Program-made: the position numbers and the translations under genes | Part shown: positions 1-32,659 of the stretch, one piece after another | How positions within the stretch are numbered: the stretch's first letter is position 1 | Layout of the letters: every line of letters starts with the position of its first letter | DNA from: Saccoglossus kowalevskii | Taxonomy: Eukaryota > Hemichordata > Enteropneusta > Harrimaniidae | Assembly (NCBI RefSeq): GCF_000003605.2 | Contig: NW_003119186.1 | Span: forward strand, 1-32,659 | Length of the DNA: 32,659 nucleotides | Direction of reading: 5' to 3' | Notes under the pieces: generated by a model | Told to the model about the DNA's origin: nothing | Databases searched by the model: none | Seen by the model: only the letters and a program-made list of their open reading frames with translations

Positions 1-26
1 CATAGGATCGCCTTCCAATGTCATCG

Positions 27-6961: not shown

Positions 6962-6993
6962 TTAGGATTTGGCGCTTTCACCGCCAAGGCCCG

Positions 6994-7004: not shown

Positions 7005-7015
7005 CGGTGTGGGAA

Positions 7016-14252: not shown

Positions 14253-14324
14253 TTCCATATGGTCTAGTGGTTAGGATTTGGCGCTCTCACCGCCAAGGCC
14301 CGGGTTCAATTCCCGGTGTTTGAA
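14253..14324 (+). pseudogene. tRNA-Glu (CUC), acceptor stem broken
   Basis: C2T (wobble), G69T and G70T leave C3 and C4 unpaired. A and B boxes are intact. S spacer with ACACGTCGTGCAG. Confidence 0.74.
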
Positions 14325-14538
14325 CACCAGTTTTATATTCCTGGTCAGTTGAACATCGCAGCTTGTACAACATTCTCATAGACAATTTAATTAAATGATA
14401 TAAATTGGCCTCTCGTATTTGTTGGCTTGATTACAAGAGAATATGTAATACACGTCGTGCAGTTCATGTCAGAAGTAGCCGATTGCATGCCATACTTGTG
14501 TTTTCCCGATAAATAGGAAATGCCTTCATACGTCAACA

Positions 14539-14610
14539 TCCCATATGGTCTAGTGGTTAGGATTTGGCGCTCTCACCGCCAAGGCCCGGGTTCAATTCCC
14601 GGTGTGGGAA
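14539..14610 (+). tRNA. tRNA-Glu (CUC), type C intact, terminator lost
   Basis: The tRNA is perfect, but the flank CACCAGTTTAATATT has only three T's. The next TTTT is at 14786-14789, late in the S spacer, predicting a 3' trailer of about 175 nt if transcribed. Confidence 0.92.
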
Positions 14611-14823
14611 CACCAGTTTAATATTCCTGGTCAGTTGAACATCGCAGCTTGTATACAATTCTCAGAGACAATTTAATTAAAAGATATAAATTGGCCTCTC
14701 GTATTTGTTGCCTTATTACAAGAGAATATGTAATACACGACGTGCAGTTCATGTCAGAAGTATCCGATTGCATGCCATACTTGTGTTTTCCCGATAAATA
14801 GGAATCGCCTTCCAATGTCATCG

Positions 14824-14895
14824 TCCCATATGGTCTAGTGGTTAGGATTCGGCGCTTTCACCGCGAAGGCCCGGGTTCAATTCCCGGTGTGGGAA
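14824..14895 (+). tRNA. tRNA-Glu (UUC), type B
   Basis: T27C and C42G. L spacer with the private GAATATATTTAATTC and GATAAACAGG. Confidence 0.87.
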
Positions 14896-15121
14896 CACCA
14901 GTTTTAGATTCCTGGTCAGTTGAACATCGCAGCTTGTACAAAATTCTCATAGACAATTTAATTAAAAGATATAAATTGGCCTCTCGTATTTGTTGGCTTG
15001 ATTACAAGAGAATATATTTAATTCACGACATTCAGTTCATGTCACGTCACGTCACAAGTATACGATTATATGCCTTACTTATGTGTTCCCGATAAACAGG
15101 AAACGCCTTCATACGTCAACG

Positions 15122-15192
15122 TCCCATATGATCTAGTGGTTAGGATTTGGCGCTCTCACCGCCATGGCCCGGGTTCATTTCCCGGTGTGAAA
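15122..15192 (+). pseudogene. tRNA-Glu (CUC) pseudogene with 1-nt deletion
   Basis: P-family body whose 3' acceptor strand is one base short (GTGTGAAACACC), so the acceptor stem cannot form fully. 71 nt long. Confidence 0.74.
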
Positions 15193-15411
15193 CACCAGTT
15201 TTATATTCCTGGTCAGTTGAACATCGCAGCTTGTACAACATTCTCATAGACAATTTAATTAAAAGATATAAATTGGCCTCTCGTATTTGTTGGCTTGATT
15301 ACAAGAGAATATATAATACTCGACATTCAGTTCATGTCACGTCACAAGTATCAGATTATATGCCTTACTTATGTGTTCCCGATAAATAGGAAACGCCTTC
15401 ATACGTCAACG

Positions 15412-15483
15412 TCCCATATGGTCTAGTGGTTAGGATTTGGCGCTTTCACCGCCAAGGCCCGGGTTCAATTCCCGGTGTGGGAA
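15412..15483 (+). tRNA. tRNA-Glu (UUC), type U consensus
   Basis: Exact consensus tRNA with an L spacer and intact T4 terminator. Confidence 0.97.
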
Positions 15484-15709
15484 CACCTGTTTTAGATTCC
15501 TGGTCAGTTGAACATCGCAGCTTGTACAAAATTCTCATAGACAATTTAATTAAAAGATATAAATTGGCCTCTCGTATTTGTTGGCTTGATTACAAGAGAA
15601 TATATATAATTCACGACATTCAGTTCATGTCACGTCACGTCACAAGTATACGATTATATGCCTTACTTATGTGTTCCCGATAAATAGGAAACGCCTTCAT
15701 ATGTCAACG

Positions 15710-15781
15710 TCCCATATGATCTAGTGGTTAGGATTTGGCGCACTCACCGCCATGGCCCGGGTTCATTTCCCGGTGTGAAAA
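15710..15781 (+). pseudogene. tRNA-Glu (CUC) pseudogene, type P2 with T33A
   Basis: P2 acceptor (C2, C3 unpaired) and loop CACTCAC, lacking U33. Its spacer (GGCTCATCAGAAG) runs into a truncated unit, as at 17388 and 28879. Confidence 0.77.
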
Positions 15782-15969
15782 CACCAGTTTTATATTCCTG
15801 GTCAGTTGAACATCGCAGCTTGTACAAAATTCTCATAGACAATTTAATTAAAAGATATAAATTGGCCTCTCGTATTTGTTGGCTCATCAGAAGAGAATAT
15901 ATAATACTCGACATTCAGTTCATGTCACGTCACAAGTATCAGATTATATGCCTTAATATCCGATTATAT

Positions 15970-15990
15970 GTTCAGTTCCCGGTGTGGGAA
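15970..15990 (+). pseudogene. Truncated tRNA-Glu, 3' 21 nt only
   Basis: Same junction as at 5253. The first repeat reads TATCAGATTATATG, the second TATCCGATTATATG. Confidence 0.88.
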
Positions 15991-16209
15991 CACCTGTTTT
16001 ATATTCCTGGTCAGTTGAACATCGCAGCTTGTACAACATTCTCATAGACAATTTAATTAAAAGATATAAATTGGCCTCTCGTATTTGTTGGCTTGATTAC
16101 AAGAGAATATATAATACTCGACATTCAGTTCATGTCACGTCACAAGTATCAGATTATATGCCTTACTTATGTGTTCCCGATAAATAGGAAACGCCTTCAT
16201 ACGTCAACG

Positions 16210-16281
16210 TCCCATATGGTCTAGTGGTTAGGATTCGGCGCTTTCACCGCGAAGGCCCGGGTTCAATTCCCGGTGTGGGAA
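16210..16281 (+). tRNA. tRNA-Glu (UUC), type B
   Basis: T27C and C42G, followed by an L spacer and then a P2 copy, the recurrent B-P2 order. Confidence 0.87.
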
Positions 16282-16507
16282 CACCAGTTTTAGATTCCTG
16301 GTCAGTTGAACATCGCAGCTTGTACAAAATTCTCATAGACAATTTAATTAAAAGATATAAATTGGCCTCTCGTATTTGTTGGCTTGATTACAAGAGAATA
16401 TATATAATTCACGACATTCAGTTCATGTCACGTCACGTCACAAGTATACGATTATATGCCTTACTTATGTGTTCCCGATAAATAGGAAACGCCTTCATAC
16501 GTCAACG

Positions 16508-16579
16508 TCCCATATGATCTAGTGGTTAGGATTTGGCGCTCTCACCGCCATGGCCCGGGTTCATTTCCCGGTGTGAAAA
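16508..16579 (+). pseudogene. tRNA-Glu (CUC) pseudogene, type P2
   Basis: P2 that keeps A57 (TTCATTT). C2 and C3 are unpaired. Confidence 0.75.
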
Positions 16580-16798
16580 CACCAGTTTTATATTCCTGGT
16601 CAGTTGAACATCGCAGCTTGTACAACATTTTCATAGACAATTTAATTAAAAGATATAAATTGGCCTCTCGTATTTGTTGGCTTGATTACAAGAGAATATA
16701 TAATACTCGACATTCAGTTCATGTCACGTCACAAGTATCAGATTATATGCCTTACTTATGTGTTCCCGATAAATAGGAAACGCCTTCATACGTCAACG

Positions 16799-16870
16799 TC
16801 CCATATGATCTAGTGGTTAGGATTTGGCGCTCTCACCGCCATGGCCCGGGTTCATTTCCCGGTGTGAGAA
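16799..16870 (+). tRNA. tRNA-Glu (CUC), type P, divergent
   Basis: Plain type P. The spacer ends GTTCCCGTTAAATAGG with CATACTTCAACG, features shared with the spacer after 12495. Confidence 0.8.
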
Positions 16871-17089
16871 CACCAGTTTTATATTCCTGGTCAGTTGAAC
16901 ATCGCAGCTTGTACAACATTCTCATAGACAATTTAATTAAAAGATATAAATTGGCCTCTCGTATTTGTTGGCTTGATTACAAGAGAATATATAATACTCG
17001 ACATTCAGTTCATGTCACGTCACAAGTATCAGATTATATGCCTTACTTATGTGTTCCCGTTAAATAGGAAACGCCTTCATACTTCAACG

Positions 17090-17161
17090 TCCCATGTGGT
17101 CTAGTGATTAGGATTTGGCGCTTTCACCGCCAAGGCTCGGGTTCAATTCCCGGTGTAGGAA
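17090..17161 (+). pseudogene. tRNA-Glu (UUC), decayed
   Basis: A7G (wobble), G19A (loss of a conserved D-loop G and A-box end), C49T (wobble) and G69A (C4·A69). L spacer. Confidence 0.75.
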
Positions 17162-17387
17162 CACCTGTTTTAAATTCCTGGTCAGTTGAACATCGCAGCT
17201 TGTACAACATTCTCATAGACAATTTAATTAAAAGATATAAATTGGCCTCTTGTATTTGTTGGCTTGATTACAAGAGAATATATATAATTCACGACATTCA
17301 GTTCATGTCACGTCACGTCACAAGTATACGATTATATGCCTTACTTATGTGTTCCCGATAAATAGGAAACGCCTTCATACGTCAACG

Positions 17388-17459
17388 TCCCATATGATCT
17401 AGTGGTTAGGATTTGGCGCACTCACCGCCATGGCCCGGGTTCATTTCCCGGTGTGAAAA
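17388..17459 (+). pseudogene. tRNA-Glu (CUC) pseudogene, type P2 with T33A
   Basis: P2 acceptor and loop CACTCAC. The spacer has CTCTAGTATTTG and AATTAAATTAAAAG. Confidence 0.77.
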
Positions 17460-17647
17460 CACCAGTTTTATATTCCTGGTCAGTTGAACATCGCAGCTTG
17501 TACAAAATTCTCATAGACAATTAAATTAAAAGATATAAATTGGCCTCTAGTATTTGTTGGCTCATCAGAAGAGAATATATAATACTCGACATTCAGTTCA
17601 TGTCACGTCACAAGTATCCGATTATATGCCTTAATATCCGAATATAT

Positions 17648-17668
17648 GTTCAGTTCCCGGTGTGGGAA
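17648..17668 (+). pseudogene. Truncated tRNA-Glu, 3' 21 nt only
   Basis: Same junction, with TATCCGAATATATG as the second repeat. The spacer has lost one A in GACATTTAATT. Confidence 0.88.
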
Positions 17669-17886
17669 CACCTGTTTTATATTCCTGGTCAGTTGAACAT
17701 CGCAGCTTGTACAAAATTCTCATAGACATTTAATTAAAAGATATAAATTGGCCTCTCGTATTTGTTGGCTTGATCACAAGAGAATATAGAATACTCGACA
17801 TTCAGTTCATGTCACGTCACAAGTATCCGATTAAATGCCTTACTTATGTGTTCCCGATAAATAGGAAACGCCTTCATACGTCAACA

Positions 17887-17958
17887 TCCTATATGGTCTA
17901 GTGGTTAGGATTTGGCGCTCTCACCGCCAAGGCCCGGATTCAATTCTCGGTGTGGGAA
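17887..17958 (+). pseudogene. tRNA-Glu (CUC), B-box defect
   Basis: C4T and C62T wobbles plus G53A (A53·C61; B box GATTCAATTCT). Related to 6083 by C4T and C62T. S spacer. Confidence 0.73.
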
Positions 17959-18172
17959 CACCAGTTTTACATTCCTGGTCAGTTGAACATCGCAGCTTGT
18001 ACAACATTCTCATAGACAATTTAATTAAATGATATAAATTGGCCTCTCGTATTTGTTGGCTTGATTACAAGAGAATATGTAATACACGACGTGCAGTTCA
18101 TGTCAGAAGAATCCGATTGCATGCCATACTTGTGTTTTCCCGATAAATAGGAAACGCCTTCAAATGTCATCG

Positions 18173-18244
18173 TCCCATATGGTCTAGTGGTTAGGATTTG
18201 GCGCTTTCACCGCCAAAGCTCGGGTTCAATTCCCGGTGTGGGAA
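18173..18244 (+). tRNA. tRNA-Glu (UUC), minor changes
   Basis: G45A in the variable region and C49T (T49-G65 wobble). All stems pair. The spacer leads to a truncated unit. Confidence 0.89.
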
Positions 18245-18432
18245 CACCTGTTTTAGATTCCTGGTCAGTTGAACATCGCAGCTTGTACAAAATTCTCATA
18301 GACAATTTAATTAAAAGATATAAATTGGCCTCTCGTATTTGTTGGCTCATCAGAAGAAAATATATAATACTCGACATTCAGTTCATGTCACGTCACAAGT
18401 ATCCGATTATATGCCTTAATATCCGATTATAT

Positions 18433-18453
18433 GTTCAGTTCCCGGTGTGGGAA
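18433..18453 (+). pseudogene. Truncated tRNA-Glu, 3' 21 nt only
   Basis: Same junction. The downstream spacer has GATTGCAAGGGAATATA and TTCAAGACATTC, repeated after 18961 and 29159. Confidence 0.88.
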
Positions 18454-18679
18454 CACCTGTTTTAGATTCCTGGTCAGTTGAACATCGCAGCTTGTAAAAA
18501 ATTCTCATAGACAATTTAATTAAAAGATATAAATTGGCCTCTCGTATTTGTTGGCTTGATTGCAAGGGAATATATATAATTCAAGACATTCAGTTCATGT
18601 CACGTCACGTCACAAGTATACGATTATATGCCTTACTTATGTGTTCCCGATAAATAGGAAACGCCTTCATATGACAACG

Positions 18680-18751
18680 TCCCATATAGTCTAGTGGTCA
18701 GGATTTGGCGCTCTCACCGCCATGACCCGGGTTAATTTCCCGGTGTGGGAA
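18680..18751 (+). pseudogene. tRNA-Glu (CUC) pseudogene, type T
   Basis: G9A, T20aC, A44T, G46A, C56A and A58T. T loop TTAATTT lacks both C56 and A58; stems including the acceptor pair. Same as 19188. Confidence 0.75.
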
Positions 18752-18940
18752 CACCAGTTTTATATTCCTGGTCAGTTGAACATTGCAGCTTGTACAAAAT
18801 TCTCATAGACAATTTAATTAAAAGATATAAATTGGCCTCTCGTATTTGTTGGCTCGATCACAAGAGAATATAGAATACTCGACATTCAGTTCATGTCACG
18901 TCACAAGTATCCGATTATATGCCTTAATATCCGATTATAT

Positions 18941-18961
18941 GTTCAGTTCCCGGTGTGGGAA
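18941..18961 (+). pseudogene. Truncated tRNA-Glu, 3' 21 nt only
   Basis: Same junction. Second member of a 508-bp direct duplication with 18433. Confidence 0.88.
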
Positions 18962-19187
18962 CACCTGTTTTAGATTCCTGGTCAGTTGAACATCGCAGCT
19001 TGTACAAAATTCTCATAGACAATTTAATTAAAAGATATAAATTGGCCTCTCGTATTTGTTGGCTTGATTGCAAGGGAATATATATAATTCAAGACATTCA
19101 GTTCATGTCACGTCACGTCACAAGTATACGATTATATGCCTTACTTATGTGTTCCCGATAAATAGGAAACGCCTTCATATGACAACG

Positions 19188-19259
19188 TCCCATATAGTCT
19201 AGTGGTCAGGATTTGGCGCTCTCACCGCCATGACCCGGGTTAATTTCCCGGTGTGGGAA
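19188..19259 (+). pseudogene. tRNA-Glu (CUC) pseudogene, type T
   Basis: Identical to 18680, 508 bp upstream. The spacer has single-base losses (GTCAGTGAACATTG, GACATTTAATTAAAG). Confidence 0.75.
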
Positions 19260-19444
19260 CACCAGTTTTATATTCCTGGTCAGTGAACATTGCAGCTTGT
19301 ACAAAATTCTCATAGACATTTAATTAAAGATATAAATTGGCCTCTCGTATTTGTTGGCTCATCAGAAGAGAATATATAATACTCGACATTCAGTTCATGT
19401 CACGTCACAAGTATCAGATTATATGCCTTAATATCCGATTATAT

Positions 19445-19465
19445 GTTCAGTTCCCGGTGTGGGAA
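19445..19465 (+). pseudogene. Truncated tRNA-Glu, 3' 21 nt only
   Basis: Same junction. The following spacer has GAATAAATAATAATCG, shared only with that after 20541. Confidence 0.88.
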
Positions 19466-19684
19466 CACCTGTTTTATATTCCTGGTCAGTTGAACATCGC
19501 AGCATGTACAACATTCTCATAGACAATTTAATTAAAAGATATAAATTGGCCTCTCGTATTTGTTGGCTTGATTACAAGAGAATAAATAATAATCGACATT
19601 CAGTTCATGTCACGTCACAAGTATCAGATTATATGCCTTACTTATGTGTTCCCGATAAATAGGAAACGCCTTCATACGTCAACG

Positions 19685-19756
19685 TCCCATATGATCTAGT
19701 GGTTAGGATTTGGCGCTCTCACCGCCATGGCCCGGGTTCATTTCCCGGTGTGAGAA
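19685..19756 (+). tRNA. tRNA-Glu (CUC), type P, divergent
   Basis: Plain type P with TATTGCTGG downstream and spacer end GGAATCGCCTTCATACATC. First unit of a block repeated at 23677. Confidence 0.8.
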
Positions 19757-19975
19757 CACCAGTTTTATATTGCTGGTCAGTTGAACATCGCAGCTTGTAC
19801 AACATTCTCATAGACAATTTAATTAAAAGATATAAATTGGCCTCTCGTATTTGTTGGCTTGATTACAAGAGAATATATAATACTCGACATTCAGTTCATG
19901 TCACGTCACAAGTATCAGATTATATGCCTTACTTATGTGTTCCCGATAAATAGGAATCGCCTTCATACATCAACG

Positions 19976-20047
19976 TCCCATATGATCTAGTGGTTAGGAT
20001 TTGGCGCTCTCACCGCCATGGCCCGGGTTCAATTCCCGGTGTGGGAA
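19976..20047 (+). tRNA. tRNA-Glu (CUC), type D
   Basis: G10A and A44T, with stems and B box intact. S spacer ending CCAATTCCATCG. Confidence 0.91.
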
Positions 20048-20260
20048 CACCAGTTTTATATTCCTGGTCAGTTGAACATCGCAGCTTGTATACAATTCTC
20101 AGAGACAATTTAATTAAAAGATATAAATTGGCCTCTCGTATTTGTTGCCTTATTACAAGAGAATATGTAATACACGACGTGCAGTTCATGTCAGAAGTAT
20201 CCGATTGCATGCCATACTTGTGTTTTCCCGATAAATAGGAATCGCCTTCCAATTCCATCG

Positions 20261-20332
20261 TCCCATATGGTCTAGTGGTTAGGATTCGGCGCTTTTACCG
20301 CGAAGGCCCGGGTTCAATTCCCGGTGTGGGAA
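20261..20332 (+). tRNA. tRNA-Glu body with UUU (Lys) anticodon, type B
   Basis: The loop reads CTTTTAC: C36T changes anticodon UUC to UUU. The body is type B (C27·A43, G28·G42). Acceptor, D and T arms are intact. Copy at 24253. Charging specificity cannot be told from sequence. Confidence 0.88.
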
Positions 20333-20520
20333 CACCAGTTTTAGATTCCTGGTCAGTTGAACATCGCAGCTTGTACAAAATTCTCATAGACAATTTAATT
20401 AAAAGATATAAATTGGCCTCTCGTATTTGTTGGCTCATCAGAAGAGAATATATAATACTCGACATTCAGTTCATGTCACGTCACAAGTATCAGATTATAT
20501 GCCTTAATATCCGATTATAT

Positions 20521-20541
20521 GTTCAGTTCCCGGTGTGGGAA
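20521..20541 (+). pseudogene. Truncated tRNA-Glu, 3' 21 nt only
   Basis: Same junction, directly after the UUU-anticodon unit. Repeated at 24513. Confidence 0.88.
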
Positions 20542-20760
20542 CACCTGTTTTATATTCCTGGTCAGTTGAACATCGCAGCTTGTACAACATTCTCATAGAC
20601 AATTTAATTAAAAGATATAAATTGGCCTCTCGTATTTGTTGGCTTGATTACAAGAGAATAAATAATAATCGACATTCAGTTCATGTCACGTCACAAGTAT
20701 CAGATTATATGCCTTACTTATGTGTTCCCGATAAATAGGAAACGCCTTCATACGTCAACG

Positions 20761-20832
20761 TCCCATATGATCTAGTGGTTAGGATTTGGCGCTCTCACCG
20801 CCATGGCCCGGGTTCATTTCCCGGTGTGAGAA
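20761..20832 (+). tRNA. tRNA-Glu (CUC), type P, divergent
   Basis: Plain type P with majority M spacer (GGAAACACC near its end). Confidence 0.8.
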
Positions 20833-21051
20833 CACCAGTTTTATATTCCTGGTCAGTTGAACATCGCAGCTTGTACAACATTCTCATAGACAATTTAATT
20901 AAAAGATATAAATTGGCCTCTCGTATTTGTTGGCTTGATTACAAGAGAATATATAATACTCGACATTCAGTTCATGTCACGTCACAAGTATCAGATTATA
21001 TGCCTTACTTATGTGTTCCCGATAAATAGGAAACACCTTCATACGTCAACG

Positions 21052-21123
21052 TCCCATATGATCTAGTGGTTAGGATTTGGCGCTCTCACCGCCATGGCCC
21101 GGGTTCATTTCCCGGTGTGAGAA
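21052..21123 (+). tRNA. tRNA-Glu (CUC), type P, divergent
   Basis: Plain type P. The spacer combines GATTACAAG with TATTATCCTCG. Confidence 0.8.
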
Positions 21124-21342
21124 CACCAGTTTTATATTCCTGGTCAGTTGAACATCGCAGCTTGTACAACATTCTCATAGACAATTTAATTAAAAGATAT
21201 AAATTGGCCTCTCGTATTTGTTGGCTTGATTACAAGAGAATATATTATCCTCGACATTCAGTTCATGTCACGTCACAAGTATCAGATTATATGCCTTACT
21301 TATGTGTTCCCGATAAATAGGAAACGCCTTCATACGTCAACG

Positions 21343-21414
21343 TCCCATATGGTCTAGTGGTTAGGATTTGGCGCTTTCACCGCCAAGGCCCGGGTTCATT
21401 TCCCGGTGTGGGAA
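21343..21414 (+). tRNA. tRNA-Glu (UUC) with A58T
   Basis: UUC consensus body carrying only the A58T of type P (TTCATTT). Likely a conversion product. Same form at 27697. Confidence 0.84.
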
Positions 21415-21633
21415 CATCTGTTTTAGATTCCTGGTCAGTTGAACATCGCAGCTTGTACAACATTCTCATAGACAATTTAATTAAAAGATATAAATTGGCA
21501 TCTCGTATTTGTTGGCTTGATTACAAGAGAATATATAATACTCGACATTCAGTTCATGTCACGTCACAAGTATCAGATTATATGCCTTACTTATGTGTTC
21601 CCGATAAATAGGAAACGCCTTCATACGTCAACG

Positions 21634-21705
21634 TCCCATATGGTCTAGTGGTTAGGATTTGGCGCTTTCACCGCCAAGGCCCGGGTTCAATTCCCGGTGT
21701 GGGAA
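21634..21705 (+). tRNA. tRNA-Glu (UUC), type U consensus
   Basis: Exact consensus. The spacer belongs to the GTTCAACATCG subfamily with GGCCCCTCG and CACATCAC. Confidence 0.97.
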
Positions 21706-21929
21706 CATCTGTTTTAGATTCCTGGTCAGTTCAACATCGCAGCTTGTACAAAATTCTCATAGACAATTTAATTAAAAGATATAAATTGGCCCCTCGTATT
21801 TGTTGGCTTGATTACAAGAGAATATATAATACTCGACATTCAGTTCATGTCACGTCACATCACAAGTATCAGATTATATGCCTTACTTATGTGTTCCCGA
21901 TAAATAGGAAACGCCTTCATACGTCAACG

Positions 21930-22001
21930 TCCCATATGGTCTAGTGGTTAGGATTTGGCGCTTTCACCGCCAAGGCCCGGGTTCAATTCCCGGTGTGGGA
22001 A
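21930..22001 (+). tRNA. tRNA-Glu (UUC), type U consensus
   Basis: Exact consensus, immediately following another type U unit: a UUC doublet also seen at 27697-27993. Confidence 0.97.
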
Positions 22002-22220
22002 CATCTGTTTTAGATTCCTGGTCAGTTCAACATCGCAGCTTGTACAAAATTCTCATAGACAATTTAATTAAAAGATATAAATTGGCCTCTCGTATTTGTT
22101 GGCTTGATTACAAGAGAATATATAATACTCGACATTCAGTTCATGTCACATCACAAGTATCAGATTATATGCCTTACTTATGTGTTCCCGATAAATAGGA
22201 AACGCCTTCATACGTCAACG

Positions 22221-22292
22221 TCTCATATGGTCTAGTGGTTAGGATTTGGCGCTTTCACCGCCAAGGCACGGGTTCAATTCCCCGTGAGGGAA
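22221..22292 (+). pseudogene. tRNA-Glu (UUC), decayed
   Basis: C3T (wobble), C49A, G64C and T68A give mismatches A49·G65, C50·C64 and A5·A68. The B box is intact. Confidence 0.74.
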
Positions 22293-22511
22293 CATCTGTT
22301 TTAGATTCCTGGTCAGTTGAACATCGCAGCTTGTACAAAATTCTCATAGACAATTTAATTAAAAGATATAAATTGGCCTCTCGTATTTTTTGGCTTGATT
22401 ACAAGAGAATATATTATCCTCGACATTCAGTTCATGTCACGTCACAAGTATCAGATTATATGCCTTACTTATGTGTTCCCGTTAAATAGGAAACGACTTC
22501 ATACGTCAACG

Positions 22512-22583
22512 TCCCATATGGTCTAGTGGTTAGGATTTGGCGCTTTCACCGCCAAGGCCCGGGTTCAATTCCCGTTGTGGGAA
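22512..22583 (+). tRNA. tRNA-Glu (UUC), T-stem end mismatch
   Basis: G65T only (C49·T65), as at 12786, and preceded likewise by a GTTCCCGTTAAATAGG-type spacer end, so the two share ancestry. Confidence 0.86.
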
Positions 22584-22802
22584 CACCTGTTTTAGATTCC
22601 TGGTCAGTTGAACATCGCAGCTTGTACAACATTCTCATAGACAATTTAATTAAAAGATATAAATTGGCCTCTCGTATTTGTTGGCTTGATTACAAGAGAA
22701 TATATAATACTCGACATTCAGTTCATGTCACGTCACAAGTATCAGATTATATGCCTTACTTATGTGTTCCCGATAAATAGGAAACGCCTTCATACATCAA
22801 CG

Positions 22803-22874
22803 TCCCATATGATCTAGTGGTTAGGATTTGGCGCTCTCACCGCCATGGCCCGGGTTCAATTCCCGGTGTGGGAA
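22803..22874 (+). tRNA. tRNA-Glu (CUC), type D
   Basis: G10A and A44T, otherwise intact. S spacer, then type B: the D-B pair recurs at 19976 and 23968. Confidence 0.91.
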
Positions 22875-23087
22875 CACCAGTTTTATATTCCTGGTCAGTT
22901 GAACATCGCAGCTTGTATACAATTCTCAGAGACAATTTAATTAAAAGATATAAATTGGCCTCTCGTATTTGTTGCCTTATTACAAGAGAATATGTAATAC
23001 ACGACGTGCAGTTCATGTCAGAAGTATCCGATTGCATGCCATACTTGTGTTTTCCCGATAAATAGGAATCGCCTTCCAATGCCATCG

Positions 23088-23159
23088 TCCCATATGGTCT
23101 AGTGGTTAGGATTCGGCGCTTTCACCGCGAAGGCCCGGGTTCAATTCCCGGTGTGGGAA
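23088..23159 (+). tRNA. tRNA-Glu (UUC), type B
   Basis: T27C and C42G. Unlike its D-B counterparts at 20261 and 24253 it keeps C36, so the UUC anticodon is retained. Confidence 0.87.
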
Positions 23160-23385
23160 CACCAGTTTTAGATTCCTGGTCAGTTGAACATCGCAGCTTG
23201 TACAAAATTCTCATAGACAATTTAATTAAAAGATATAAATTGGCCTCTCGTATTTGTTGGCTTGATTACAAGAGAATATATATAATTCACGACATTCAGT
23301 TCATGTCACGTCACGTCACAAATATACGATTATATGCCTTACTTATGTGTTCCCGATAAATAGGAAACGCCTACATACGTCAACG

Positions 23386-23457
23386 TCCCATATGATCTAG
23401 TGGTTAGGATTTGGCGCTCTCACCGCCATGGCCCGGGTTCGTTTCCCGGTGTGAAAA
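23386..23457 (+). pseudogene. tRNA-Glu (CUC) pseudogene, type P2
   Basis: P2 with A57G. The spacer has the GAGTACAAG/TATTATCC marker. Confidence 0.75.
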
Positions 23458-23676
23458 CACCAGTTTTATATTCCTGGTCAGTTGAACATCGCAGCTTGTA
23501 CAACATTCTCATAGACAATTTAATTAAAAGATATAAATTGGCCTCTCGTATTTGTTGGCTTGAGTACAAGAGAATATATTATCCTCGACATTCAGTTCAT
23601 GTCACGTCACAAGTATCAGATTATATGCCTTACTTATGTGTTCCCGATAAATAGGAAACGCCTTCATACGTCAACG

Positions 23677-23748
23677 TCCCATATGATCTAGTGGTTAGGA
23701 TTTGGCGCTCTCACCGCCATGGCCCGGGTTCATTTCCCGGTGTGAGAA
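23677..23748 (+). tRNA. tRNA-Glu (CUC), type P, divergent
   Basis: Plain type P with TATTGCTGG. Duplicate of 19685 at +3992. Confidence 0.8.
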
Positions 23749-23967
23749 CACCAGTTTTATATTGCTGGTCAGTTGAACATCGCAGCTTGTACAACATTCT
23801 CATAGACAATTTAATTAAAAGATATAAATTGGCCTCTCGTATTTGTTGGCTTGATTACAAGAGAATATATAATACTCGACATTCAGTTCATGTCACGTCA
23901 CAAGTATCAGATTATATGCCTTACTTATGTGTTCCCGATAAATAGGAATCGCCTTCATACATCAACG

Positions 23968-24039
23968 TCCCATATGATCTAGTGGTTAGGATTTGGCGCT
24001 CTCACCGCCATGGCCCGGGTTCAATTCCCGGTGTGGGAA
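23968..24039 (+). tRNA. tRNA-Glu (CUC), type D
   Basis: Duplicate of 19976 at +3992: G10A and A44T, S spacer ending CCAATTCCATCG. Confidence 0.91.
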
Positions 24040-24252
24040 CACCAGTTTTATATTCCTGGTCAGTTGAACATCGCAGCTTGTATACAATTCTCAGAGACAA
24101 TTTAATTAAAAGATATAAATTGGCCTCTCGTATTTGTTGCCTTATTACAAGAGAATATGTAATACACGACGTGCAGTTCATGTCAGAAGTATCCGATTGC
24201 ATGCCATACTTGTGTTTTCCCGATAAATAGGAATCGCCTTCCAATTCCATCG

Positions 24253-24324
24253 TCCCATATGGTCTAGTGGTTAGGATTCGGCGCTTTTACCGCGAAGGCC
24301 CGGGTTCAATTCCCGGTGTGGGAA
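24253..24324 (+). tRNA. tRNA-Glu body with UUU (Lys) anticodon, type B
   Basis: C36T with T27C and C42G, identical to 20261 at +3992, so not an independent mutation. Confidence 0.88.
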
Positions 24325-24512
24325 CACCAGTTTTAGATTCCTGGTCAGTTGAACATCGCAGCTTGTACAAAATTCTCATAGACAATTTAATTAAAAGATA
24401 TAAATTGGCCTCTCGTATTTGTTGGCTCATCAGAAGAGAATATATAATACTCGACATTCAGTTCATGTCACGTCACAAGTATCAGATTATATGCCTTAAT
24501 ATCCGATTATAT

Positions 24513-24533
24513 GTTCAGTTCCCGGTGTGGGAA
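24513..24533 (+). pseudogene. Truncated tRNA-Glu, 3' 21 nt only
   Basis: Same junction. Duplicate of 20521. The block identity ends in the following spacer, where AATATATAATACTCG replaces AATAAATAATAATCG. Confidence 0.88.
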
Positions 24534-24752
24534 CACCTGTTTTATATTCCTGGTCAGTTGAACATCGCAGCTTGTACAACATTCTCATAGACAATTTAAT
24601 TAAAAGATATAAATTGGCCTCTCGTATTTGTTGGCTTGATTACAAGAGAATATATAATACTCGACATTCAGTTCATGTCACGTCACAAGTATCAGATTAT
24701 ATGCCTTACTTATGTGTTCCCGATAAATAGGAAACGCCTTCATACGTCAACG

Positions 24753-24824
24753 TCCCATATGGTCTAGTGGTTAGGATTTGGCGCTTTCACCGCCAAGGCC
24801 CGGGTTCAATTCCCGGTGTGGGAA
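24753..24824 (+). tRNA. tRNA-Glu (UUC), type U consensus
   Basis: Exact consensus with L spacer and intact terminator. Confidence 0.97.
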
Positions 24825-25050
24825 CACCTGTTTTAGATTCCTGGTCAGTTGAACATCGCAGCTTGTACAAAATTCTCATAGACAATTTAATTAAAAGATA
24901 TAAATTGGCCTCTCGTATTTGTTGGCTTGATTACAAGAGAATATATATAATTCACGACATTCAGTTCATGTCACGTCACGTCACAAGTATACGATTATAT
25001 GCCTTACTTATGTGTTCCCGATAAATAGGAAACGCCTTCATACGTCAACG

Positions 25051-25122
25051 TCCCATATGATCTAGTGGTTAGGATTTGGCGCTCTCACCGCCATGGCCCG
25101 GGTTCATTTCCCGGTGTGAGAA
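25051..25122 (+). tRNA. tRNA-Glu (CUC), type P, divergent
   Basis: Plain type P with the CACTCAGTTCAAGTCACG marker of 10440. Confidence 0.8.
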
Positions 25123-25341
25123 CACCAGTTTTATATTCCTGGTCAGTTGAACATCGCAGCTTGTACAACATTCTCATAGACAATTTAATTAAAAGATATA
25201 AATTGGCCTCTCGTATTTGTTGGCTTGATTACAAGAGAATATATAATACTCGACACTCAGTTCAAGTCACGTCACAAGTATCAGATTATATGCCTTACTT
25301 ATGTGTTCCCGATAAATAGGAAACGCCTTCATACGTCAACG

Positions 25342-25413
25342 TCCCATATGGTCTAGTGGTTAGGATTCGGCGCTTTCACCGCGAAGGCCCGGGTTCAATT
25401 CCCGGTGTGGGAA
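25342..25413 (+). tRNA. tRNA-Glu (UUC), type B
   Basis: T27C and C42G, L spacer, then P2. Confidence 0.87.
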
Positions 25414-25639
25414 CACCAGTTTTAGATTCCTGGTCAGTTGAACATCGCAGCTTGTACAAAATTCTCATAGACAATTTAATTAAAAGATATAAATTGGCCT
25501 CTCGTATTTGTTGGCTTGATTACAAGAGAATATATATAATTCACGACATTCAGTTCATGTCACGTCACGTCACAAGTATACGATTATATGCCTTACTTAT
25601 GTGTTCCCGATAAATAGGAAACGCCTTCATACGTCAACG

Positions 25640-25711
25640 TCCCATATGATCTAGTGGTTAGGATTTGGCGCTCTCACCGCCATGGCCCGGGTTCGTTTCC
25701 CGGTGTGAAAA
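25640..25711 (+). pseudogene. tRNA-Glu (CUC) pseudogene, type P2
   Basis: P2 with A57G. Private spacer change GGCCTCGCGTATT. Confidence 0.75.
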
Positions 25712-25930
25712 CACCAGTTTTATATTCCTGGTCAGTTGAACATCGCAGCTTGTACAACATTCTCATAGACAATTTAATTAAAAGATATAAATTGGCCTCG
25801 CGTATTTGTTGGCTTGATTACAAGAGAATATATAATACTCGACATTCAGTTCATGTCACGTCACAAGTATCAGATTATATGCCTTACTTATGTGTTCCCG
25901 ATAAATAGGAAACGCCTTCATACGTCAACG

Positions 25931-26002
25931 TCCCATATGATCTAGTGGTTAGGATTTGGCGCTCTCACCGCCATGGCCCGGGTTCATTTCCCGGTGTGAG
26001 AA
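25931..26002 (+). tRNA. tRNA-Glu (CUC), type P, divergent
   Basis: Plain type P, but the spacer has two CACGT copies with TATCAGATT (296-bp unit), mixing M and L features. Confidence 0.8.
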
Positions 26003-26226
26003 CACCAGTTTTATATTCCTGGTCAGTTGAACATCGCAGCTTGTACAACATTCTCATAGACAATTTAATTAAAAGATATAAATTGGCCTCTCGTATTTGT
26101 TGGCTTGATTACAAGAGAATATATAATACTCGACATTCAGTTCATGTCACGTCACGTCACAAGTATCAGATTATATGCCTTACTTATGTGTTCCCGATAA
26201 ATAGGAAACGCCTTCATACGTCAACG

Positions 26227-26298
26227 TCCCATATTGTCTAGTGGTTAGGATTTGGCGCTTTCACGGCCAAGGCCCGGGTTCAATTCCCGGTGTGGGAA
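26227..26298 (+). tRNA. tRNA-Glu (UUC), anticodon-stem mismatch
   Basis: G9T and C39G (G31·G39, next to the loop). The preceding CATATTGTC is shared with 5498 and 30177. Confidence 0.83.
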
Positions 26299-26517
26299 CA
26301 TCTGTTTTAGATTCCTGGTCAGTTCAACATCGCAGCTTGTACAAAATTCTCATAGACAATTTAATTAAAAGATATAAATTGGCCTCTCGTATTTGTTGGC
26401 TTGATTACAAGAGAATATATAATACTCGACATTCAGTTCATGTCACGTCACAAGTATCAGATTATATGCCTTACTTATGTGTTCCCGATAAATAGGAAAC
26501 GCCTTCATACGTCAACA

Positions 26518-26589
26518 TCCCATATGGTCTAGTGGTTAGGATTTGGCGCTTTCACCGCCAAGGCCCGGGTTCAATTCCCGGTGTGGGAA
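26518..26589 (+). tRNA. tRNA-Glu (UUC), type U consensus
   Basis: Exact consensus. One extra C after A73 (CACCCTG) moves the T4 run to 8 nt downstream. Confidence 0.97.
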
Positions 26590-26816
26590 CACCCTGTTTT
26601 AGATTCCTGGTCGGTTGAACATCGCAGCTTGTACAACATTCTCATAGACAATTTAATTAAAAGATATAAATTGGCCTCTCGTATTTGTTGGCTTGATTAC
26701 AAGAGAATATATATAATTCACGACATTCAGTTCATGTCACGTCACGTCACAAGTATACGATTATATGCCTTACTTATGTGTTCCCGATAAATAGGAAACG
26801 CCTTCATACGTCAAAG

Positions 26817-26888
26817 TACCATATGATCTAGTGGTTAGGATTTGGCGCTCTCACCGCCATGGCCCGGGTTCATTTCCCGGTGTGAGAA
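26817..26888 (+). pseudogene. tRNA-Glu (CUC), type P with C2A
   Basis: Type P plus C2A, so A2·G71 and C3·A70 are both unpaired. The upstream flank is also altered (TCAAAG). Confidence 0.74.
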
Positions 26889-27107
26889 CACCAGTTTTAT
26901 ATTCCTGGTCAGTTGAACATCGCAGCTTGTACAACATTCTCATAGACAATTTAATTAAAAGATATAAATTGGCCTCTCGTATTTGTTGGCTTGATTGCAA
27001 GAGAATATATAATACTCGACATTCAGTTCATGTCACGTCACAAGTATCAGATTATATGCCTTACTTATGTGTTCCCGATAAATAGGAAACGCCTTCATAC
27101 GTCAATG

Positions 27108-27179
27108 TCCCATATGGTCTAGTGGTTAGGATTTGGCGCTTTTACCGCCAAGGCCCGGGTTCAATTCCCGGTGTGGGAA
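27108..27179 (+). tRNA. tRNA-Glu body with UUU (Lys) anticodon, otherwise perfect
   Basis: The loop reads CTTTTAC. C36T is the only departure from the type U consensus: all stems, U33, A58, both promoter boxes and the T4 terminator are intact. Arose separately from the type B copies at 20261 and 24253. Discriminator A73 is unchanged. Confidence 0.93.
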
Positions 27180-27405
27180 CACCTGTTTTAGATTCCTGGT
27201 CAGTTGAACATCGCAGCTTGTACAAAATTCTCATAGACAATTTAATTAAAAGATATAAATTGGCCTCTCGTATTTGTTGGCTTGATTACAAGAGAATATA
27301 TATAATTCACGACATTCAGTTCATGTCACGTCACGTCACAAGTATACGATTATATGCCTTACTTATGTGTTCCCGATAAATAGGAAACGCCTTCATACGT
27401 CAACG

Positions 27406-27477
27406 TCCCATATGATCTAGTGGTTAGGATTTGGCGCTCTCACCGCCATGGCCCGGGTTCATTTCCCGGTGTGAGAA
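27406..27477 (+). tRNA. tRNA-Glu (CUC), type P, divergent
   Basis: Plain type P with the majority M spacer. Confidence 0.8.
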
Positions 27478-27696
27478 CACCAGTTTTATATTCCTGGTCA
27501 GTTGAACATCGCAGCTTGTACAACATTCTCATAGACAATTTAATTAAAAGATATAAATTGGCCTCTCGTATTTGTTGGCTTGATTACAAGAGAATATATA
27601 ATACTCGACATTCAGTTCATGTCACGTCACAAGTATCAGATTATATGCCTTACTTATGTGTTCCCGATAAATAGGAAACGCCTTCATACGTCAACG

Positions 27697-27768
27697 TCCC
27701 ATATGGTCTAGTGGTTAGGATTTGGCGCTTTCACCGCCAAGGCCCGGGTTCATTTCCCGGTGTGGGAA
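27697..27768 (+). tRNA. tRNA-Glu (UUC) with A58T
   Basis: Only A58T departs from consensus, as at 21343. Spacer of the GTTCAACATCG, GGCCCCTCG subfamily. Confidence 0.84.
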
Positions 27769-27992
27769 CATCTGTTTTAGATTCCTGGTCAGTTCAACAT
27801 CGCAGCTTGTACAAAATTCTCATAGACAATTTAATTAAAAGATATAAATTGGCCCCTCGTATTTGTTGGCTTGATTACAAGAGAATATATAATACTCGAC
27901 ATTCAGTTCATGTCACGTCACGTCACAAGTATCAGATTATATGCCTTACTTATGTGTTCCCGATAAATAGGAAACGCCTTCATACGTCAACG

Positions 27993-28064
27993 TCCCATAT
28001 GGTCTAGTGGTTAGGATTTGGCGCTTTCACCGCCAAGGCCCGGGTTCAATTCCCGGTGTGGGAA
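27993..28064 (+). tRNA. tRNA-Glu (UUC), type U consensus
   Basis: Exact consensus. GTTCAACATCG spacer with two CACGT copies. Confidence 0.97.
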
Positions 28065-28288
28065 CATCTGTTTTAGATTCCTGGTCAGTTCAACATCGCA
28101 GCTTGTACAAAATTCTCATAGACAATTTAATTAAAAGATATAAATTGGCCTCTCGTATTTGTTGGCTTGATTACAAGAGAATATATAATACTCGACATTC
28201 AGTTCATGTCACGTCACGTCACAAGTATCAGATTATATGCCTTACTTATGTGTTCCCGATAAATAGGAAACGCCTTCATACGTCAACG

Positions 28289-28360
28289 TCCCATATGATC
28301 TAGTGGTTAGGCTTTGGCGCTCTCACCGCCATGGCCCGGGTTCATTTCCCGGTGTGAGAA
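28289..28360 (+). pseudogene. tRNA-Glu (CUC), type P with A24C
   Basis: Type P plus A24C (T11·C24 in the D stem). The spacer has TATTTCTTGG and AATGCTCG. Confidence 0.72.
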
Positions 28361-28579
28361 CACCAGTTTTATATTCCTGGTCAGTTGAACATCGCAGCTT
28401 GTACAACATTCTCATAGGCAATTTAATTAAAAGATATAAATTGGCCTCTCGTATTTCTTGGCTTGATTACAAGAGAATATATAATGCTCGACATTCAGTT
28501 CATGTCACGTCACAAGTATCAGATTATATGCCTTACTTATGTGTTCCCGATAAATAGGAAACGCCTTCATACGTCAACA

Positions 28580-28652
28580 TCCCATATGGTCTAGTGGTTA
28601 GGATTTGGCGCTTTCACCGGCCAAGGCCCGGGTTCAATTCCCGGTGTGGGAA
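28580..28652 (+). pseudogene. tRNA-Glu (UUC) with 1-nt insertion
   Basis: An extra G in the 3' anticodon strand (CACCGGCCAAGG) makes 73 nt and shifts pairing with GGCG. Otherwise consensus. Confidence 0.78.
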
Positions 28653-28878
28653 CACCTGTTTTAGATTCCTGGTCAGTTGAACATCGCAGCTTGTACAAAA
28701 TTCTCATAGACAATTTAATTAAAAGATATAAATTGGCCTCTCGTATTTGTTGGCTTGATTACAAGAGAATATATATAATTCACGACATTCAGTTCATGTC
28801 ACGTCACGTCACAAGTATACGATTATATGCCTTACTTATGTGTTCCTGATAAATAGGAAACGCCTTCATACGTCAACG

Positions 28879-28950
28879 TCCCATATGATCTAGTGGTTAG
28901 GATTTGGCGCACTCACCGCCATGGCCCGGGTTCATTTCCCGGTGTGAAAA
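28879..28950 (+). pseudogene. tRNA-Glu (CUC) pseudogene, type P2 with T33A
   Basis: P2 acceptor and loop CACTCAC. Flank ACTCCAGTTTT. Leads into a truncated unit. Confidence 0.77.
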
Positions 28951-29138
28951 CTCCAGTTTTATATTCCTGGTCAGTTGAACATCGCAGCTTGTACAAAATT
29001 CTCATAGACAATTTAATTAAAAGATATAAATTGGCCTCTCGTATTTGTTGGCTCATCAGAAGAGAATATATAATACTCGACATTCAGTTCATGTCACGTC
29101 ACAAGTATCCGATTATATGCCTTAATATCCGATTATAT

Positions 29139-29159
29139 GTTCAGTTCCCGGTGTGGGAA
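29139..29159 (+). pseudogene. Truncated tRNA-Glu, 3' 21 nt only
   Basis: Same junction. The spacer has GATTGCAAGGG, as after 18453 and 18961. Confidence 0.88.
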
Positions 29160-29385
29160 CACCTGTTTTAGATTCCTGGTCAGTTGAACATCGCAGCTTG
29201 TACAAAATTCTCATAGACAATTTAATTAAAAGATATAAATTGGCCTCTCGTATTTGTTGGCTTGATTGCAAGGGAATATATATAATTCAAGACATTCAGT
29301 TCATGTCACGTCACGTCACAAGTATACGATTATATGCCTTACTTATGTGTTCCCGATAAATAGGAAACGCCTTCATACGTCAACG

Positions 29386-29457
29386 TCCCATATGATCTAG
29401 TGGTTATCATTTGGCGCTTTCAACGCCAAGGCCAGGGTTCAATTCCAGGTGTGGGAA
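29386..29457 (+). tRNA. tRNA-Glu (UUC), rearranged D stem
   Basis: G10A, G22T, G23C, C38A, C50A and G64A. Sister of 11022 but with A50·A64 unpaired. S spacer. Confidence 0.76.
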
Positions 29458-29670
29458 CACCTGTTTTAGATTCCTGGTCAGTCGAACATCGCAGCTTGTA
29501 TACAATTCTCAGTGACAATTTAATTAAAAGATATAAATTGGCCTCTCGTATTTGTTGCCTTATTACAAGAGAATATGTAATACACGACGTGCAGTTCATG
29601 TCAGAAGTATCCGATTGCATGCCATACTTGTGTTTTCCCGATAAATAGGAATTGCCTTCCAATGTCATCG

Positions 29671-29742
29671 TCCCATATGGTCTAGTGGTTAGGATTCGGC
29701 GCTTTCACCGCCAAGGCCCAGGTTCAATTCCCGGTGTGAGAA
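29671..29742 (+). tRNA. tRNA-Glu (UUC), two stem mismatches
   Basis: T27C, G51A (A51·C63) and G70A (C3·A70). Derived from the same ancestor as 27 and 11307. Confidence 0.8.
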
Positions 29743-29931
29743 CACCTGTTTTAGATTCCTGGTCAGTTGAACATCGCAGCTTGTACAAAATTCTCATAGA
29801 CAATTTAATTAAAATATATAATTTGGCCTCTCGTATTTGTTGGCTTGATTACAAGAGAATATAGAATACTCGACATTCAGTTCATGTCACGTCACAAGTA
29901 TCCGATTATATGCCTTAATATCCGATTATAT

Positions 29932-29952
29932 GTTCAGTTCCCGGTGTGGGAA
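29932..29952 (+). pseudogene. Truncated tRNA-Glu, 3' 21 nt only
   Basis: Same junction as 5253, at +24679, with the same downstream CATCTG flank and GTTCAACATCG spacer. Confidence 0.88.
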
Positions 29953-30176
29953 CATCTGTTTTAGATTCCTGGTCAGTTCAACATCGCAGCTTGTACAAAA
30001 TTCTCATAGACAATTTAATTAAAAGATATAAATTGGCCCCTCGTATTTGTTGGCTTGATTACAAGAGAATATATAATACTGGACATTCAGTTCATGTCAC
30101 GTCATGTCACAAGTATCAGATTATATGCCTTACTTATGTGTTCCCGATAAATAGGAAACGCCTTCATACGTCAACG

Positions 30177-30248
30177 TCCCATATTGTCTAGTGGTTAGGA
30201 TTTGGCGCTTTCACCGCCAAGGCCCGGGTTCAATTCTCGGTGTGGGAA
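30177..30248 (+). tRNA. tRNA-Glu (UUC), minor changes
   Basis: G9T and C62T, identical to 5498 at +24679. Confidence 0.87.
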
Positions 30249-30469
30249 CATCTGTTTTAGATTCCTGGTCAGTTCAACATCGCAGCTTGTACAAAATTCT
30301 CATAGACAATTTAATTAAAAGATATAAATTGGCCTCTCGTATTTGTTGGCTTGATTACAAGAGAATATATATAGTACTCGACATTCAGTTCATGTCACGT
30401 CACAAGTATCAGATTATATGCCTTACTTATGTGTTCCTGATAAATAGGAAACGCCTTCATACGTCAACG

Positions 30470-30541
30470 TCCCATATGGTCTAGTGGATAGGATTTGGCG
30501 CTCTCACTGCCAAGGCCCGGGTTCAATTCCCGGTGTGGGAA
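30470..30541 (+). tRNA. tRNA-Glu (CUC), minor changes
   Basis: T20A and C39T, identical to 5791. Its spacer diverges after GCAGATTGTATGACATTC (CACAGATAATTT, CAAGTGTATATA). Confidence 0.89.
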
Positions 30542-30759
30542 CACCTGTTTTAGATTCCTGGTCAGTTGAACATCGCAGATTGTATGACATTCTCACAGAT
30601 AATTTAATTAAAAGATATAAATTGGTCTCTCGCATTTGTTGCCTTATTACAAGTGTATATATAATACTCCACATTCAGTTCATGTCACGTCACAAGTATC
30701 AGATTATATGCCTTACTTATGTGTTCCCGATAAATAGGAAACGCCTTCAGACGACAACG

Positions 30760-30831
30760 TCCCATATGGTCTAGTGGTCATGATTTTGCGCTCTCACCGC
30801 CATGACCCGGGTTCATTTCCCGGTGTGAGAA
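30760..30831 (+). pseudogene. tRNA-Glu (CUC) pseudogene, type T
   Basis: Same tRNA as 2956, including T20aC, G22T, G28T, A58T and G70A. Confidence 0.75.
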
Positions 30832-31052
30832 CACCTGTTTTAGATTCCTGGTCAGTTGAACATCGCAGCTGGTACAACATTCTCATAGGCAATTTAATTA
30901 AAAGATATAAATTGGCCTCTCGTATTTGTTGGCTTGATTACAAGAGAATATATATAATTCACGACATTCAGTTCATGTCACGTCACAAGTATCCGATTAT
31001 ATGCCTTACTTATGTGTTCCCGATAAATAGGAAACGCCTTCATACGACAACG

Positions 31053-31124
31053 TCCCATATAGTCTAGTGGTCAGGATTTGGCGCTCTCACCGCCATGACC
31101 CGGCTTCATTTCCCGGTGTGGGAA
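31053..31124 (+). pseudogene. tRNA-Glu (CUC) pseudogene, type T
   Basis: G9A, T20aC, A44T, G46A, G53C (C53·C61) and A58T. B box GCTTCATTTCC is broken twice. Acceptor intact. L spacer. Confidence 0.75.
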
Positions 31125-31350
31125 CACTGGTTTTAGATTCCTGGTCAGTTGAACATCGCAGCTTGTACAAAATTCTCATAGACAATTTAATTAAAAGATA
31201 TAAATTGGCCTCTCGTATTTGTTGGCTGGATTACAAGAGAATATATATAATTCACGACATTCAGTTCATGTCACGTCACGTCACAAGTATACGATTATAT
31301 GCCTTACTTATGTGTTCCCGATAAATAGGAAACGCCTTCATACGTCAAAG

Positions 31351-31422
31351 TCCCATATGATCTAGTGGTTAGGATTTGGCGCTCTCACCGCCATGGCCCG
31401 GGTTCATTTCCCGGTGTGAGAA
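31351..31422 (+). tRNA. tRNA-Glu (CUC), type P, divergent
   Basis: Plain type P. The spacer end GTTCCCAATAAATAGG is shared with that after 1500. Confidence 0.8.
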
Positions 31423-31641
31423 CACCAGTTTTATATTCCTGGTCAGTTGAACATCGCAGCTTGTACAACATTCTCATAGACAATTTAATTAAAAGATATA
31501 AATTGGCCTCTCGTATTTGTTGGCTTGATTACAAGAGAATATATAATACTCGACATTCAGTTCATGTCACGTCACAAGTATCAGATTATATGCCTTACTT
31601 ATGTGTTCCCAATAAATAGGAAACGCCTTCATACGTCAACG

Positions 31642-31713
31642 TCCCATATGGTCTAGTGGTTAGGATTTGGCGCTTTCACCGCCAAGGCCTGGGTTCAATT
31701 CCCGGTGTGGGAA
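31642..31713 (+). tRNA. tRNA-Glu (UUC), near consensus
   Basis: C50T only, a T50-G64 wobble. Unusual for UUC, it has an S spacer. Confidence 0.9.
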
Positions 31714-31927
31714 CACCTGTTTTAGATTCCTGGTCAGTTGAACATCGCAGCTTGTACAACATTCTCATAGACAATTTAATTAAATGATATAAATTGGCCT
31801 CTCGTATATGTTGGCTTGATTACAAGAGAATATGTAATACACGACGTGCAGTTCATGTCAGAAGTATCCGATTGCATGCTATACTTGTGTTTTCCCGATA
31901 AATAGGAAACGCCTACAAATGTCATCG

Positions 31928-31999
31928 TCCCATATGGTCTAGTGGTTAGGATTTGGCGCTTTCACCGCCAAGGCCCGGGTTCAATTCCCGGTGTGTGAA
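31928..31999 (+). tRNA. tRNA-Glu (UUC), acceptor mismatch
   Basis: G70T only, identical to 2367 at +29561. Confidence 0.85.
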
Positions 32000-32225
32000 C
32001 ACCTGTTTTAGATTCCTGGTCAGTTGAACATTGCAGCTTGTACAACATTCTCATAGACAATTTAATTAAATGATATAAATTGGCCTCTCGTATATGTTGG
32101 CTTGATTACAAGAGAATATATATAATTCACGACATTCAGTTCATGTCACGTCACGTCACAAGTAATCGATTATATGCCTTACTTATGTGTTCCCGATAAA
32201 TAGGAAACACCTTCATACGTCAACG

Positions 32226-32297
32226 TCCCATATGATATAGTGGTTAGGATTTGGCCCTCTCACCGCCATGGCCCGGGTTCATTTCCCGGTGTGAGAA
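32226..32297 (+). pseudogene. tRNA-Glu (CUC) pseudogene, type P with extra stem breaks
   Basis: C12A and G31C on type P, identical to 2665 at +29561. Confidence 0.75.
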
Positions 32298-32516
32298 CAC
32301 CAGTTTTATATTCCTGGTCAGTTGAACATCGCAGCTTGTACAACATTCCCATAGACAATTTAATTAAAAGATATAAATTGGCCTCTCATATTTGTTGGAT
32401 TGATTACAAGACAATATATAATACTCGACATTCAGTTCATGTCACGTCACAAGTATCAGATTATATGCCTTACTTATGTGTTCCCGATAAATAGGAAACG
32501 CCTTCAGACGACAACG

Positions 32517-32588
32517 TCCCATATGGTCTAGTGGTCATGATTTTGCGCTCTCACCGCCATGACCCGGGTTCATTTCCCGGTGTGAGAA
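32517..32588 (+). pseudogene. tRNA-Glu (CUC) pseudogene, type T
   Basis: Same as 2956 at +29561. The unit is cut by the window end; its spacer has lost one A (GGTACACATTC). Confidence 0.75.
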
Positions 32589-32659
32589 CACCTGTTTTAG
32601 ATTCCTGGTCAGTTGAACATCGCAGCTGGTACACATTCTCATAGGCAATTTAATTAAAA

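Follow-up and report, generated by a model that had tools for sequence, protein, structure and literature searches.

The window analyzed here (the whole stretch of 32659 bp, corresponding to the whole of contig C1197 in a 572-Mb, 4830-contig assembly) contains a tRNA gene that combines the body of a tRNA-Glu with the anticodon of a tRNA-Lys, which raises the question of whether such a gene would be charged with glutamate or with lysine, and whether it serves decoding in any special way. The dilemma over charging had been set out in the initial annotation and is correct as posed. Our analysis indicates that the C36T change behind it is very probably a recurrent, partly duplicated and near-neutral alloacceptor anticodon shift within giant tRNA-Glu arrays; the TTT copies have the appearance of ordinary variants within a repeat array under loose constraint, not of a new decoding device.

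ARAGORN called a tRNA-Lys(ttt) at 27108-27180, and the Rfam model RF00005 matched 27108-27179 over its full length (63.5 bits against a gathering score of 29; model positions 1-71 of 71), the second-best of 101 gathering-score matches in the window. These results agree with the earlier description of an intact tRNA-Glu body with a lysine anticodon, as does the proposal that a single substitution separates it from Glu-TTC: C36T is the sole difference from the commonest TTC body, of which the window holds seven identical copies. No sign of structural decay was found at 27108 itself (no stem mispair, A58 present); T33 and discriminator A were also retained, and the promoter boxes and terminator claimed for the gene could be recovered as TGGTCTAGTGG and GGTTCAATTCC, which we take to be an A-box and a B-box, and as a TTTT run that neighboring units likewise possess (Table 1). 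A TATA-like GATAAATAGGAA upstream of the gene is a possible Pol III element. The same motif occurs at 95 other places in the window, lying 31 bases 5′ of a tRNA in the 81 cases measured, and its diversity is low (0.015 and 0.024), although equal or lower values were found in 23/280 and 11/274 of twelve-column stretches, counts that include the motif itself. The gene lacks the YUC anticodon of tRNA-Glu and has one of the two anticodons of tRNA-Lys (UUU/CUU), while its body is that of the local tRNA-Glu family; compared by eye with canonical tRNA-Lys bodies of the same genome (contig C874), it is Glu-like and ends in A, whereas those differ from it markedly and end in G. It is thus an alloacceptor shift in the sense of an isotype-changing anticodon substitution in an otherwise conserved body.

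Table 1. Coordinates of features in the window
Feature	Position	Strand	Basis or description
Tandem tRNA-Glu array	1..32659	+	ARAGORN; unit ~291 bp, 104 tRNA genes
TATA-like GATAAATAGGAA	27077..27088	+	31 bases 5′ of the 27108 gene
tRNA-Glu body with anticodon TTT (27141-27143)	27108..27179	+	ARAGORN, Rfam, body comparison
A-box-like TGGTCTAGTGG	27115..27125	+	within the 27108 gene
B-box-like GGTTCAATTCC	27158..27168	+	within the 27108 gene
TTTT run, terminator-like	27186..27189	+	3′ of the 27108 gene
Second TTT copy	20261..20332	+	anticodon-stem mispairs 27-43 C.A and 28-42 G.G
Third TTT copy	24253..24324	+	no difference from 20261 in the 290 bp compared

The gene is part of a tandem tRNA array (head-to-tail, with a regular period, on one strand) that fills the window from end to end, a context missing from the initial annotation. 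By ARAGORN, the anticodons of the 104 tRNAs were 62 CTC, 39 TTC and 3 TTT, all on the + strand. Where tRNA spacing widened to ∼500 bp, a shortened unit of ∼210 bp with approximately the last 22 tRNA bases was found in between. Ten such units were located using one pattern (5248, 15965, 17643, 18428, 18936, 19440, 20516, 24508, 29134 and 29927); all lack the 5′ part of the tRNA and share a near-identical junction, TATATGTTCA, before the last ∼22 bases, apparently one deletion that has spread through the array. In a 587-bp gap (12786-13373), a tRNA body at 13084 with altered acceptor and anticodon-loop bases was not called by ARAGORN. The commonest CTC body (19 copies; e.g., 621, 1500 and 1791) has a C3.A70 mismatch and T58, so that many CTC copies appear less fit than TTC copies.

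Comparable arrays occur elsewhere in the assembly. Contig C742 yielded 74 ARAGORN calls in 25.4 kb (69 Glu) and C2654 yielded 409 in 129 kb (402 Glu-TTC), while further Glu arrays were found in C103 and C983, of which the first 10 kb each were examined (C103, 14945; C983, 33814). A simple allelic relationship between C742 and the window was considered and rejected, as their longest shared exact segments differ in order. Among the first 100 of 483 places, array-type Glu-CTC copies were also seen in C166, C257 and C354, one or two per long contig, and these are apparently dispersed. Canonical tRNA-Lys arrays, both Lys-TTT and Lys-CTT, are present in the same genome: a genome search allowing up to one mismatch returned 90 places, and 13 Lys-TTT were counted in the 6 kb of C874 (10791) that were examined. 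The tRNA-Lys arrays are also tandem and of a single isotype (TTT in C874; CTT in C2779 and C4166), and several tRNA families of this genome may be arrayed in this form. In the mitochondrion, COX1, ND1 and COX2 have in-frame TGA, AAA at Lys sites that appear conserved by eye, and AGA inside ND1; under the code assignments that we assumed for echinoderm, flatworm and vertebrate mitochondria, these codons argue against all three codes, and they point to an animal that is probably an invertebrate but neither echinoderm nor flatworm. No report of these particular tRNA-Glu arrays was found in a literature search conducted without the species name, and the array system itself is a larger curiosity than the TTT copies within it.

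The initial annotation implied that the gene at 27108 was singular, and this did not hold. Of the hundreds of Glu units in the assembly, a 35-place pattern picked out six that pair a Glu body with TTT: three in the window (including 20261 and 24253, which had been overlooked), two in C742 and one in C2654. A 33-place pattern that left the anticodon stem mostly free and allowed CTT returned the same six TTT copies and no Glu-bodied CTT copy in the assembly, both patterns depending on intact sequence around the anticodon arm, such that copies damaged there may escape. The further copies in the window, C742 and C2654 rule out 27108 as a lone variant. Similarity over 290-bp units divided the six into four groups, three of them singletons. 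The fourth comprises 20261, 24253 and C742 5910, which show no difference across 290 bp; all three sit within longer stretches of exact identity (1068 bp and 877 bp), and the two window copies both fall within an exact 1068-bp duplicate (19593 and 23585). The nearest units to 27108 are TTC units at two mismatches; the C2654 copy (124284) is nearest to TTC units of its own contig at four mismatches; and the nearest unit to C742 17488 is a TTC unit of the window. However, the 492 bp directly 5′ of 27108 are identical to those 5′ of C742 17488, and so these two may have had one origin followed by conversion; a fair statement from these comparisons is three to four probable origins. Complete stem pairing together with A58 is seen in only two of the six (27108 and the C2654 copy). 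Stems are also paired in C742 17488, but A58 has been replaced by T58, and each member of the identical trio has two anticodon-stem mispairs that are also found in its TTC sister units.

Position 36 was not a favored site of change. Anticodons of the 680 Glu bodies examined were 532 TTC, 135 CTC, 6 TTT, 3 TAC, one each of TCC, TTG and TTA, and one deletion. Across the body's 18 C sites, C-to-T changes were found in 0 to 74 copies each (counting copies, not events), and there is no enrichment of C36T, because the six copies at position 36 rank fourth lowest. The single TTA copy (C742 1383-1455, − strand) has a Glu body with all stems paired and A58 kept; three adjacent bases of its anticodon loop are changed from CAC to AGT, and its anticodon is predicted to decode UAA, a stop codon. 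In C2654, five further Glu bodies (11077, 17057, 19330, 16772 and 94354) have the anticodons of Val (TAC, three copies), Gly (TCC, one) and Gln (TTG, one), and none of the five has every stem position paired in the unit alignment.

To evaluate constraint on single copies, units were grouped into sets of 166 (C1197 plus C742), 405 (C2654 plus C983) and 22 (C103). Diversity and pairing tests were restricted to units with 270 to 310 bp to the next body, and C103 entered mean diversity only. In neither large set did these tests reveal a measurable sign of constraint on single copies, with the proviso that array copies are related and that diversity, allele and pairing counts are consequently not independent. 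Mean diversity of the body was close to that of the spacer beyond +25 (0.066 versus 0.060 in 166 units; 0.072 versus 0.071 in 405 units), and most 73-column spacer stretches were less diverse than the body (91/129 and 104/123, respectively). Distinct rare alleles per non-CpG site were somewhat more frequent in body than in spacer (0.815 versus 0.599, Fisher P = 0.044; 1.708 versus 1.383, P = 0.010), and at CpG sites body and spacer rates did not differ clearly. Rare stem alleles kept pairing in 15/45 and 16/84 cases against a random expectation of 0.286, and every stem was paired in 63/166 and 59/405 units. Within the 166-unit set, A58 was present in 65/68 TTC and 36/95 CTC copies. A body no more conserved than its spacer, as found in both large sets, is in keeping with a decaying tRNA repeat; the C103 set alone gave the opposite result (body, 0.072; spacer, 0.095). 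Nonetheless, the consensus still forms a sound tRNA-Glu body, and the family must therefore be under selection at one level or another.

The change at position 36 therefore recurs, duplication has spread one version of it, and body and spacer are about equally diverse in both large sets. A plausible course of events is that the arrays grow and mix through duplication and unequal exchange or conversion, as suggested by the shared exact segments, and that single copies gather changes under little or no selection, some of which would strike the anticodon; duplication would then propagate a few of the anticodon-changed copies. No function need be invoked, because single copies show no measurable constraint. 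Against near-neutrality, it should be noted that two TTT copies are intact throughout (27108, with its high-ranking Rfam match, and that of C2654), and that the C103 body is less diverse than its spacer. On the evidence of their sequences, these two TTT copies could be functional.

That intactness, together with the duplication of one TTT version, would also be expected had the TTT copies been remolded for use, i.e., if they were expressed, charged with lysine, selected, and contributing to the tRNA-Lys(UUU) supply. The anticodon alone can confer Lys identity, according to the relevant passages of PMC3923123 (an Asn-to-Lys shift in Drosophila) and PMC9976931 (a UUU anticodon is enough for human LysRS to charge a tRNA with lysine), and from these precedents a TTT copy, if transcribed, is most likely a lysine tRNA. 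However, the genome already has canonical Lys-TTT arrays, the version that was duplicated is the one with two stem mispairs, C742 17488 is without A58, C36T is not enriched, and single copies are without visible constraint, leaving selected use unlikely. A broader proposal, which we regard as similarly improbable, is that the tRNA-Glu arrays are a standing reservoir of anticodon variants, arising repeatedly and in some cases spread by duplication, whose intact members are transcribed into functional lysine-charged tRNAs and possibly a UAA reader (C742 1383), with isotype switching ongoing within one genome.

Under the near-neutral explanation, a transcribed TTT copy would be charged by LysRS through its UUU anticodon and would read AAA/AAG as lysine; its share of the Lys tRNA pool would be small given the canonical tRNA-Lys arrays, and there would be little or no misreading of Lys codons as Glu. 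The converse, that the UUU copy stays charged with glutamate and inserts it at lysine codons as a stress or regulatory feature, draws on a body that is unchanged tRNA-Glu save for position 36. Yet C36 and the other anticodon bases are listed among the strong determinants for E. coli GluRS in the consulted part of PMC9976931 (where the eukaryotic Glu row is blank), which by analogy, and with the sufficiency of UUU for human LysRS, makes mistranslation the less likely branch; the TTT copies are moreover few, scattered and partly damaged, and a dedicated device of this kind is highly improbable. An error of sequencing or assembly at position 36 can be given scarcely any weight, even though tandem arrays are hard to assemble and the 27108 version is single-copy, because three contigs and two body types carry C36T and one TTT version is identical over 290 bp at three places.

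Taken as near-neutral variation, these arrays show how freely anticodon changes accumulate when hundreds of tRNA gene copies stand in tandem. Were these genes annotated from the anticodon only, six doubtful ones would be entered as Lys, and the variant copies, if transcribed, would be a natural test of which synthetase charges them.

Several known systems resemble parts of what is described here. In alloacceptor shifts as treated in the relevant passages of PMC3923123, an anticodon substitution likewise leaves body and anticodon belonging to different isotypes, the Drosophila case (GTT to TTT) being without any other change. Those shifts were between orthologues of related species, whereas here the shift separates copies within a single array of a single genome, and the pair is Glu-to-Lys. 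Homogeneous tRNA clusters, as well as clusters with fifty or more members, are reported from other eukaryotes in the corresponding part of PMC2888827, with tandem repeats first reported in Entamoeba, but the single-isotype arrays in this assembly reach 104 genes over 32.7 kb and 409 ARAGORN calls over 129 kb. Human anticodon variants (PMC6779403, PMC11415595) similarly include nonsynonymous changes in high-copy families; the mistranslation candidates in the sections consulted are Ala, Ser and Leu tRNAs, which their synthetases recognize with little or no reading of the anticodon, in contrast to Glu and Lys, where it is read. Switches between both Glu anticodons appear in the mouse data of PMC3868979, as excerpted. 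Finally, the account of tRNAscan-SE 2.0 (PMC8450103) treats, in its pertinent section, disagreement between anticodon and isotype as marking possible “genetic code-breakers” or, in other cases, slowly decaying tRNA repeats. As in those isotype-discordant (“hybrid”) or decaying genes, anticodon and body disagree here and many copies are mispaired; unlike the dispersed retroposed elements of that study, ours are tandem units of gene plus spacer, some of them intact. Of its two readings, that of slowly decaying repeats fits the TTT copies better than that of code-breakers.
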